A stretch of DNA of 59,426 bases, taken from Oscillospiraceae bacterium Zagget12 (GTDB lineage: Bacteria > Bacillota > Clostridia > UBA1381). The DNA lies in the NCBI GenBank assembly GCA_001941225.1, contig MSHM01000043.1, positions 1 to 59,426 of the forward strand, given 5' to 3'. Made by a program: the position numbers and the translations under genes. Shown here one piece after another: positions 8,489 through 11,578 of the stretch (the stretch's first letter is position 1; every line of letters starts with the position of its first letter). The notes beneath the pieces were generated by a model. That model saw only the letters and a list, made by a program, of their open reading frames with translations, had not been told where the DNA came from and did not search any database.

Positions 8489-8524
8489 AAAAACAGGGCT
8501 GTTCATATATTCAGCCCTGTTTTC
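8489..8524. terminator. Bidirectional terminator between GNAT and pflA
   Basis: AAAAACAGGGCTG (8489-8501) pairs with CAGCCCTGTTTTT-type sequence (8512-8524) around a 10-base AT loop. It serves the plus-strand GNAT gene and the minus-strand pfl operon. The pflA stop codon lies in the stem. Confidence 0.85.
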
Positions 8525-9251
8525 TTATCTTTTTCATATTTTCAATTATAACATTTCGCGCGTGTACCGCCTCGTCCTTAGTCGCGTCCGGAGTGTCGCC
8601 GAGCGGATATTTCATTCCCAATTCACTGTACTTCGGCTTTGCCATAGAGTGATACGGCAGAACGTCAAGCGCCTTTATATTGCGGTATCCGCCTATATAC
8701 CCGCCCAGACGCGCAAGATAAGCGTCGTCAAGAGTGATGCCCGGAACAATTACGTGACGTATCCACACGGTTTTATTTTTACTTGCGAGATAGTCAAGAT
8801 AATTCAGCACACGCTTATTTGAATGTCCCGTCAGCTTGCGGTGCTCCTCATCGTCTATATGCTTAATATCGAGCATAACAAGGTCGCAAACCTCGGTCAG
8901 CGCGTCAAACTCGTCAAGCCTGTCGGCGGAAAATAATATTCCCGAGGTGTCCAGGCAGGTGTGTATTCCGCGTTTCTTGGCTTTCGTGAAAAGCTCGGTG
9001 AGAAATTCAATCTGCATAAGCGGCTCGCCGCCCGTGGCGGTTATTCCGCCGTTTTTGTAAAACACCGCGCCCTTTTCGTACTCGTCAAGAATTTCCTCCG
9101 CGGTCATATCGGTGCCGCCGGACATATCCCAGGTGTCGGGATTGTGGCAGTAGAGGCACCTCATAGGACAGCCCTTGAAAAAGACCGTAAGTCTTATCCC
9201 CGGGCCGTCCACGGTGCCGAATGATTCAATCGAATGAATATGCCCTATCAT
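8511..9251 (-). CDS. pflA: Pyruvate formate-lyase activating enzyme
   Basis: Radical SAM enzyme that abstracts a hydrogen from the conserved glycine of PFL. The 246-residue product has the 4Fe-4S motif CPMRCLYC (C28, C32, C35), then the TGGEP SAM-binding motif ([10 protein letters not shown]). Length and motif positions match PflA proper, not the longer activases that carry ferredoxin domains. Its start overlaps the stop of the radical-domain gene by 4 bases (ATGA), so the activase and its substrate domain are translationally coupled. Confidence 0.95.
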
Positions 9252-9484
9252 ATTCTGTCGTGGAATGTACGGCTTATAACGTCGTCCTGCTGTTCCTTTG
9301 TAAGCTTAATAAAGTTTACCGCGTATCCCGACACTCTCACCGTAAGCTGCGGATATTTTTCCGGATGCTTTTGAGCGTCCAAAAGAGTTTCTCTCGTAAA
9401 TACGTTTACATTTAGGTGGTGTCCGCCCTTTTCAGCGTAGCCGTCCAATAAATTTACCAAATTTTCTACCTGTTGTGTTGCCAT
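9248..9484 (-). CDS. Stand-alone glycyl-radical domain of pyruvate formate-lyase (GrcA-like)
   Basis: A 78-residue protein matching the last part of a normal PFL: HLNVNV, then [18 protein letters not shown] with the radical Gly53, then the [15 protein letters not shown] tail. The upstream gene encodes a PFL chain without this domain, so this peptide should be an obligate partner and not a spare part like E. coli GrcA/YfiD. It has its own AAGGAGGA site 7 bases before the ATG. It is in the same reading frame as the preceding gene, separated by TAA and six codons. It overlaps pflA by 4 bases. Confidence 0.93.
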
Positions 9485-9502
9485 AATAATCTCCTCCTTA
9501 AT

Positions 9503-11578
9503 TTAGTTAATGTTGTCCTCGCAGCAGCCGTCGTCAAGGTCAACCGCAAGGTCGCCCATAAATACTCTGTCGTCCTTGCCGAGTGCGCCCGGAATAATCG
9601 AGAACGTATTTGAAATACCGTCCTGCGCGTCCTTAAACGGCAGCTTTGCCACCGATGAAAGCGACGCTACAGCGCCGTGTGTGTCGCGTCCGTGCATCGG
9701 GTTCGCGCCCGGTGCAAGCGGCACTCCGGCTTTTCTTCCGTCGGGCGTGTTGCCCGTCTTTTTGCCGTATACCACGTTCGATGTGATTGTGAGAATCGAC
9801 ATTGTGGGAATACTGTCGCGGTAGGTGTGGTGCTTTCTTATCTTATCCATAAAGGTTTCCACAATCTTAGCCGCGATTGAGTCAACTCTGTCATCGTTGT
9901 TTCCGTATTTCGGGAAATCACCCTCTACCTCATAATCAACGACTACGCCTGCCTCGTTTCTTATGCACTTAACCTTTGCGTACTTAATCGCGCTCAGCGA
10001 ATCGGCAACAACCGAAAGTCCCGCGATACCGGTCGCAAAGTATCTCTTTACCTCCCTGTCGTGAAGAGCCATCTGGAGTTTTTCGTAGCAGTATTTATCG
10101 TGCATATAGTGAATTACGTTAAGAGTGTTCACATAAAGACCCGCAAGCCATTCCATCATATCGTCATACTTCTGCATAACGTCGTCATAATCAAGATAAT
10201 CACCCTCAACCGCGCGGTATCTCGGGCCTACCTGTGTGCCGAGTCTTTCGTCAACGCCGCCGTTTATCGCGTAAAGCAGGCACTTTGCAAGATTTGCTCT
10301 CGCGCCGAAGAACTGCATTTCCTTGCCTACGCGCATCGACGATACGCAGCACGCGATAGCGTAATCGTCGCCGTGAGTAACGCGCATAAGGTCATCGTTT
10401 TCATATTGGATTGAGGACGTCTTGATTGACATCTCGGCGCAAAATTCCTTGAACGCTTTGGGAAGTCTTACGGACCACAGCACCGTCATATTCGGTTCGG
10501 GAGCCGTGCCGAGATTATCGAGCGTATGCAGGTATCTGAACGAGCTTTTTGTAACAAGCGGTCTGCCGTCAATGCCGATGCCGCCGATTGACTCTGTCAC
10601 CCACGTCGGGTCGCCCGAGAACAATTCATTATAGTCGGGTGTTCTCGCAAACTTCACAAGACGCAGTTTCATAATGAAATGGTCTATATATTCCTGCGCC
10701 TCCTCCTCTGTTATAACGCCGTTTGCAATATCGCGCTCGATATAAATATCAAGGAATGTCGATGTTCTTCCCAGGCTCATCGCCGCGCCGTTCTGCTCCT
10801 TGACGGCGGCAAGATAGCCGAAATACAGCCATTGCACCGCCTCTTTGGCGTTCCTTGCCGGTTTTGAAATGTCGCAGCCGTAAATATTTCCAAGCTCCTT
10901 AAGCTCGTCAAGCGCGCGCAGCTGCTCCGCAAGCTCCTCGCGAAGTCTTATATTCTTTGAAGTCATTCTTACAAGTGAGGTTTCAAGCTGTTTCTTTTTA
11001 TCCTCTATAAGAAAGTCAACGCCGTACAGCGCCACGCGTCTGTAGTCGCCGATAATTCTTCCGCGTCCGTAAGCGTCGGGAAGTCCCGTTATGATTGCGG
11101 CATGTCTTGCCGCCTTCATCGCCGGTGTGTACACGTCAAAAACACCCTGGTTATGCGTTTTTCTGTACTTTGTGAATATATTGACAACCTCCGGATCCAC
11201 CTCGTAGCCGTTCTGACGGCACGCATTCTGAGCCATTCTTATACCGCCGAATGGCTGGAGTGAACGCTTAAACGGCTTATCGGTCTGAAAGCCGACAATC
11301 TGTTCAAGATTCTTATCGAGGTATCCCGCGGCATGCGACGTTATCGTCGATACTGTCTTTGTATCCATATCAAGCACTCCGCCCGCCTCGCGCTCTTTTT
11401 TTGAAAGCTCCATTACCATATCCCACAATTTCTTTGTGGCATCGGTCGCCGGAGCAAGGAAATCACCATTGCCTTCATACGGTGTGTAATTCTTCTGAAT
11501 AAAATCACGAACATCTACGGATTTTGTCCACTTTCCGGCAACAAATCCTGCCCATTCTTCTCTTTGTTCGCTATGCAT
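9503..11578 (-). CDS. pflB: Pyruvate formate-lyase catalytic chain, lacking the glycyl-radical domain
   Basis: Converts pyruvate and CoA to acetyl-CoA and formate. The 691 residues cover the PFL domain, including the catalytic pair Cys410-Cys411 in [12 protein letters not shown] and the substrate region [17 protein letters not shown]. Instead of continuing into the radical domain, the chain ends after [20 protein letters not shown] with CCEDNIN. Full PFL is around 750-770 residues, the sum of this protein and the 78-residue one downstream. The ATG follows AGGAGGA. The stop is TAA and is followed by a proper ribosome binding site, which argues against a chance nonsense mutation. Confidence 0.95.

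Follow-up and report, generated by a model that had tools for sequence, protein, structure and literature searches.

An evolved split of pyruvate formate-lyase into a catalytic chain and a separate glycyl-radical chain in Oscillospiraceae bacterium Zagget12 and other gut bacteria

The pyruvate formate-lyase (PFL) of Oscillospiraceae bacterium Zagget12 is encoded by two genes, one for a large catalytic chain and one for a small glycyl-radical chain, and this two-gene state is an evolved, conserved gene split. Many other gut bacteria share this arrangement, sometimes as their only PFL copy, and the two chains very probably form a working two-chain PFL. PFL is a central fermentation enzyme and one of the main outlets for pyruvate in anaerobes; oxygen destroys it by attack at the radical glycine. 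The locus lies on the minus strand of the 59,426-nt stretch of DNA analysed here (the window) and has the following features:

9503..11578, minus strand: large catalytic PFL chain, 691 aa, with Cys410-Cys411 and without a glycyl-radical domain (TIGR01255 profile and direct reading)
10351..10346, minus strand: Cys410-Cys411 codons of the large chain (direct reading)
9485..9505, minus strand: TAA stop, then 18 intercistronic nt containing the ribosome-binding site AAGGAGGA (direct reading)
9499..9492, minus strand: ribosome-binding site AAGGAGGA
9248..9484, minus strand: small glycyl-radical chain, 78 aa, GrcA3 family, with RVSGYAV and Gly53 (NF038360, PF01228)
9328..9326, minus strand: Gly53 codon of the small chain
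8511..9251, minus strand: pflA, radical-SAM PFL-activating enzyme, 246 aa (TIGR02493)

On this strand the order is large PFL chain, TAA plus 18 nt, small gene and pflA, the start of which overlaps the TGA of the small gene (ATGA). The preliminary description gave the coordinates and the reading of the PFL locus correctly, its interval of 8511-11578 also taking in pflA (9251..8511). As it stated, the 691-residue chain has the Cys410-Cys411 pair and ends before the radical domain: the score against TIGR01255 is 1134.6 bits (cut-off 994.2), and the match covers model positions 2-674 of 744 and stops there, the glycyl-radical part being absent. The next gene, of 78 residues, does carry RVSGYAV with Gly53. 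Its product scores 168.8 bits against NF038360 (GrcA3), above the cut-off of 158, and 96.7 bits against TIGR04365 (GrcA/YfiD), below the cut-off of 170; it matches PF01228 at positions 52-106 and, among the Pfam and NCBIfam models, is closest to GrcA and PFL C-terminal domains. PflA scores 280.6 bits against TIGR02493 (cut-off 231.75). No regulatory RNA or tRNA was found in the window. A perfect 12-nt inverted repeat, AAAACAGGGCTG ... CAGCCCTGTTTT (window 8490-8523), seen by eye and absent from the repeat scan, lies at the end of pflA and is a possible terminator.

By alignment through Klebsiella PflB, residues R174, W326, C410, C411, F424 and R427 of the large chain correspond to R176, W333, C418, C419, F432 and R435 of E. 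coli PFL, all identical; these E. coli residues have catalytic roles. The large chain aligns as far as E. coli residue 690 and then runs on for nine residues, and the small chain aligns with residues 684-755, so that the cut falls just ahead of the last barrel strand as placed in PMC8683613.

In the window the halves share one frame and are separated by one TAA and six in-frame codons (ATT AAG GAG GAG ATT ATT) containing AAGGAGGA. This had been described correctly, but it is incidental, since among the eight split species of the genus only the window's genome (G000) and a 99% relative (G004) have the halves in frame. A shared frame with one stop is what a decayed PFL would leave, its halves being relics of a nonsense mutation or an assembly error. 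The same split, however, is present in 27 of the 95 genomes of the order, all reaching the GrcA3 cut-off as short ORFs, one of which (in G031) meets a stop close to the end of the gene. Upstream of the small gene, all 27 have a truncated PFL in the same orientation, with gaps of -38 to 245 nt, the pairing that the preliminary description had proposed to look for in other genomes. Of the 16 genomes of the genus, eight are split, seven carry a different type of PFL, which is fused, and G003 shows neither; in the class sample, 21 of 391 genomes are split. Among named loci, taken as the best 80 of 556 confirmed stretches, 67 are split, one is fused (L202) and 12 are without a large chain, one of these because of a contig end; since these loci were picked by GrcA3 similarity, splits are over-represented among the 80. 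Some metagenome-assembled genomes may be misnamed: a bin labelled Muribaculaceae and another labelled as a proteobacterium group with Gastranaerophilales.

Altogether 106 split loci were parsed, including two duplicates (L149 = L075 and L161 = L079). All three frame offsets occur among them (29, 49 and 28 loci), and the intergenic gap ranges from -38 to 479 nt with a median of 101. The radical motif is found in 106/106 small chains and 0/106 large chains, and every one of the 106 large chains, including seven partial ones, has Cys-Cys. A ribosome-binding-like motif precedes the small start in 40 of 41 parsed loci, and a pflA-like frame follows in 32 of the 41; in six, none was found with more than 1.5 kb of DNA available. 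Compared with eight relatives (NG86), dN/dS is 0.035-0.049 for the large gene (computable in six of the eight) and 0.028-0.040 for the small gene (computable in five), figures which are rough because most dS values exceed 1. Purifying selection acts on both chains. Given its recurrence in the order, in the class and in other phyla, the differing gaps and frames, and dN/dS of about 0.03-0.05, the split is an evolved one, as originally proposed, and not a random nonsense mutation; conservation of the broken state as two genes together with maintained constraint rules out a pseudogene, and we give decay almost no credence.

Stop readthrough or frameshifting to yield a fused working PFL would likewise fit the window and G004, where the halves are in frame with a single stop. 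It is contradicted by the 77 of 106 loci that are out of frame, by gaps of up to 479 nt, by several stops between the halves in both in-frame relatives inspected (L233 and L245), and by the RNA of window positions 9440-9540, which folds less well than shuffles (z +1.91) and shows no structure at the stop; we regard it as extremely improbable. Apparent fusions in G471 and G477, with open frames of 829 and 884 aa, were rejected on reading the DNA, as stops lie between the genes. The large chain of Lancefieldella rimae (L213) is a 784-aa open frame, its C-terminal tail running on to ...VDCACEADPSASEGAEDRS. Tails after LGKDD vary by lineage, with GCCE in the window's genus and ACSxPTLFEGLD in others. 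A duplicated junction had also been claimed, DLAVDLDDG at the end of the large chain paralleling ENLVNLLDG at the start of the small one. In ungapped BLOSUM62 scoring of 101 tail/start pairs against shuffled tails, the mean was 13.5 versus 14.8 for shuffles, with 23 of the 101 pairs above their own shuffle mean; the window's pair is among only three in which at most 5 of 100 shuffles score as high (5 for the window). Similarity over the 101 pairs being no higher than chance, the duplication is not supported.

The split pair is usually the sole PFL of its genome. At E 1e-20, 21 of the 27 split order genomes are without any fused PFL; both forms are present in G037, G038, G041 and G048, while the fused one in G044 is partial and the match in G033 is at a contig edge. 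Ten of the split genomes of the order reach 90% completeness (G002, G006, G014, G026, G030, G037, G038, G039, G046 and G048); seven of these are without a fused PFL and three have one. Outside the order, a single PFL match at E 1e-100 was obtained in 14 of 15 split class genomes and two matches in G444, with at most two candidates scored per genome, so that a third PFL could escape. Ruminococcus albus KH2T6, R. bicirculans 80/3 and Lancefieldella rimae have the split pair only, at E 1e-20. In the window's genome, no full-length Cys-Cys PFL, for which the preliminary description had proposed to look, was found; this absence is weak evidence, as the genome is 77% complete. Its other PF02901 gene is of the TIGR01774 type, with GCVE instead of Cys-Cys:

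G000:C17:74764-77199 (L001): PFL2-3 (TIGR01774) glycyl-radical enzyme of the window's genome, 843 aa, with an activase-like gene next in line

Two further glycyl-radical ORFs (714 and 716 aa) are present in this genome, and the formate channel family PF01226 was not found in it (77% complete). An unsplit form of the same gene, named in the preliminary description as a finding that would count against a split, was not seen in relatives: the fused PFLs of seven of the 16 genus members are of the other type, with a CCC motif and 64-66% identity, and the only one placed on the tree (G001) is in a clade apart from the split PFL. Such a three-cysteine fused PFL (ICCCVSA) replaces or accompanies the split PFL in the same genus and family (L016-L022, L093 as a fused ORF, and L105-L108).

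A different reading holds that the small protein is a spare part, like GrcA/YfiD, for another glycyl-radical enzyme, the large chain doing something else or nothing. NCBI names it as a spare part, the window's genome has the other glycyl-radical genes described above, and in 11 of the 80 best named loci (of 556) grcA3 has about 4 kb upstream with no PFL in the locus. Ten of these 11 genomes, however, also hold a truncated PFL with its own small gene (the large chains of G467 and G470 being partial), and the eleventh, G474, yielded just the small gene. The placement behind a truncated PFL in 27/27 order genomes, the closeness of the small chain to GrcA and PFL C-terminal domains and the catalytic residues retained in the large chain also speak against this reading, which we consider very unlikely. 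A full-length PFL that the small chain might back up is present in 3 of the 10 near-complete split genomes and was not found in the window's genome (77% complete). Since the large chain is always without a radical domain and there is mostly no full-length PFL alongside, the small chain appears to be an obligate subunit and not a backup.

In two of ten other genomes searched (G483 and G485) a second small gene likewise lies on another contig, and the grcA3 paralogue pairs of ten genomes share 66-78 identities over 76-81 residues. A CRP/FNR-type regulator lies within 1 kb of grcA3 in 8 of the 11 unlinked loci versus 0 of 69 others, the latter count coming from a profile built on the eight regulators, which favours its own members:

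L151:3233-4015: CRP/FNR-type regulator near unlinked grcA3
L152:3206-3937: CRP/FNR-type regulator near unlinked grcA3
L157:3206-3874: CRP/FNR-type regulator near unlinked grcA3
L172:3210-3941: CRP/FNR-type regulator near unlinked grcA3
L194:2722-3390: CRP/FNR-type regulator near unlinked grcA3
L196:3079-3810: CRP/FNR-type regulator near unlinked grcA3
L218:2441-3097: CRP/FNR-type regulator near unlinked grcA3
L222:3101-3838: CRP/FNR-type regulator near unlinked grcA3

These proteins have cNMP-binding and Crp helix-turn-helix domains (Pfam), the first domain of L194 being just above the cut-off. Their genes are upstream of the unlinked grcA3, adjacent in six loci, 0.6 kb off in L194 and 0.9 kb off in L218, with one gene between; no CRP/FNR-type regulator was found in the unlinked loci L148, L186 and L191. 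Seven of the eight, spanning Gastranaerophilales and Lachnospiraceae, have one shared cysteine and a CxNAC motif, which L194 does not have, and two of the eight compared with NCBIfam fell below the Fnr and Crp cut-offs. We infer from these sequences that the grcA3-linked regulators may sense redox state; E. coli grcA is oxygen-regulated. The L222 regulator had no match in the window's genome, in a search that had no positive control.

In large-chain trees (117-row FastTree and 83-row IQ-TREE, the latter with 55 chosen split rows), three changes between the split and fused states are needed on both. The main split clade (SH-aLRT 98) contains 52 split rows and three fused rows (L145, L146 and L202), and holding the 52 split rows together without these three was rejected (p-AU 0.009, the group having been named after the tree was seen). 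All three carry the glutamine of the split lineage (LLDAQ or LIDAQ), which is at the same position in 106/106 split small chains, that position being M, Y or H in 25 of 28 fused genes; a looser glutamine pattern anywhere in the domain matches 5 of the 28. Two of the three have the top GrcA3 scores among the listed fused ORFs (151.5 and 149.7 bits, the next being 134.3). The nesting in the split clade, the DAQ glutamine and the high GrcA3 scores make it likely that these genes are re-fusions of split genes. Since no leftover tail was seen at their junctions, a retained fused state with several independent splits is a possible alternative. The large chain of a second, small split group (L143, L187 and L217) ends exactly at LGKDD/LGKDED and sits next to the fused clade of the CCC type (95), pointing to an independent truncation event; the small chains of this group fall on the GrcA3 side, in a tree of few columns and few supported branches. 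Tail-less large chains ending at LGKDD/LGKDED were observed in L187, L195, L217 and L143; no pflA frame was found downstream of these four, and L143 has an activase match upstream.

In the two-chain PFL that we favour, the large chain would supply the barrel, the substrate site and Cys-Cys, GrcA3 as the small chain would add the final barrel strand together with the loop that bears the glycyl radical, and PflA, the next gene in line, would place the radical on Gly53. E. coli biochemistry suggests, by analogy, that the chains would assemble non-covalently, be activated by PflA after docking and turn over fully, the activity arising in trans. The predicted structure is weak at residues 595-760, the interface, where the pLDDT of the block is mostly <70, and its alignment used small-chain rows trimmed at the N-terminus; its match to PDB 2pfl is thus a consistency check only. 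Oxygen would cut only the 78-residue chain, and the cell would restore PFL by swapping a cheap part. Such repair by exchange is the likely benefit of the split, although we are less sure of it than of the two-chain enzyme; genomes with a second, regulator-linked grcA3 may hold a dedicated replacement supply. The split may instead be selectively neutral in a true two-chain PFL whose halves bind anyway. The nesting of three fused genes in the split clade suggests that cells tolerate fusion, and class II ribonucleotide reductase is another split enzyme, for which the passages of PMC4520616 considered describe no repair role, whereas persistence over many families and several phyla and the second grcA3 copies that stand without a large chain near a regulator are less easily reconciled with neutrality; we lean against it while taking it as a serious contender. 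The fullest reading, that the exchangeable radical subunit is a standing PFL architecture of many gut Clostridia and some Coriobacteria and Gastranaerophilales, passed between phyla, with a second copy near a cysteine-bearing CRP/FNR-type regulator as a redox-controlled replacement stock in some lineages and re-fusion in at least one, is put forward tentatively, at slightly short of an even chance.

E. coli GrcA/YfiD and phage T4 Y06I are likewise small, separate homologues of the PFL C-terminal domain with the same RVSGYAV loop, and as spare proteins for oxygen-cleaved PFL they work with a PFL body without a radical loop, according to PMC8683613. YfiD, 127 aa long and disordered in its N-terminal half, backs up an intact PFL, whereas the small chain of the window has 78 aa and adjoins the PFL gene; the PFL body of the split family never has its own radical domain, unlike the intact PFL partner of YfiD. 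An engineered E. coli pair, tPFL (1-695) and truncYfiD (YfiD 61-127), is cut within a few residues of the natural site; truncYfiD begins at the position matching PFL 693, which in the natural small chain is preceded by 16 residues. This laboratory construct is weakly activated: 2.7 uM radical was obtained for tPFL:truncYfiD versus 15.9 for cPFL:YfiD in the E. coli system, and YfiD binding to tPFL was not seen by calorimetry. As the engineered pair activates and binds poorly, a working natural pair would have to bind better, and would offer an evolution-shaped two-part system for studies of PFL activation. The class II ribonucleotide reductase of Pseudomonas aeruginosa is a radical enzyme that is similarly divided, a single operon encoding the large catalytic chain NrdJa and the small C-terminal chain NrdJb, both of them required in vivo; NrdJb functions in thiol-disulfide exchange and carries no radical (PMC4520616), whereas the PFL small chain carries the radical glycine.

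The preliminary description could cite no obligate split of this kind, and no description of a natural one was found among the titles and abstract starts listed from the open-licence literature searched, nor in passages of PMC12578642 and PMC8919644. The small protein itself is already known: it is a member of NCBIfam NF038360, GrcA3, the model name of which says autonomous cofactor, and grcA3 is annotated behind pflB in a RefSeq record of Collinsella aerofaciens; the spare-radical principle is likewise known from E. coli. In the literature searched there appears to be no description of an obligate natural two-chain PFL, of how widely it occurs or of a second grcA3 copy linked to a regulator. 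If the reading is true, an always-separate radical part would show how a radical enzyme can be made repairable, and annotation and counting of PFL in gut microbiomes would change, such truncated pflB genes not being broken ones. Two formate acetyltransferase chains in the PDB, 38la (687 aa) and 38lb (739 aa), also stop short of the radical domain and have no radical-chain match; 38la stops at LGKED, adjacent to the natural split point.
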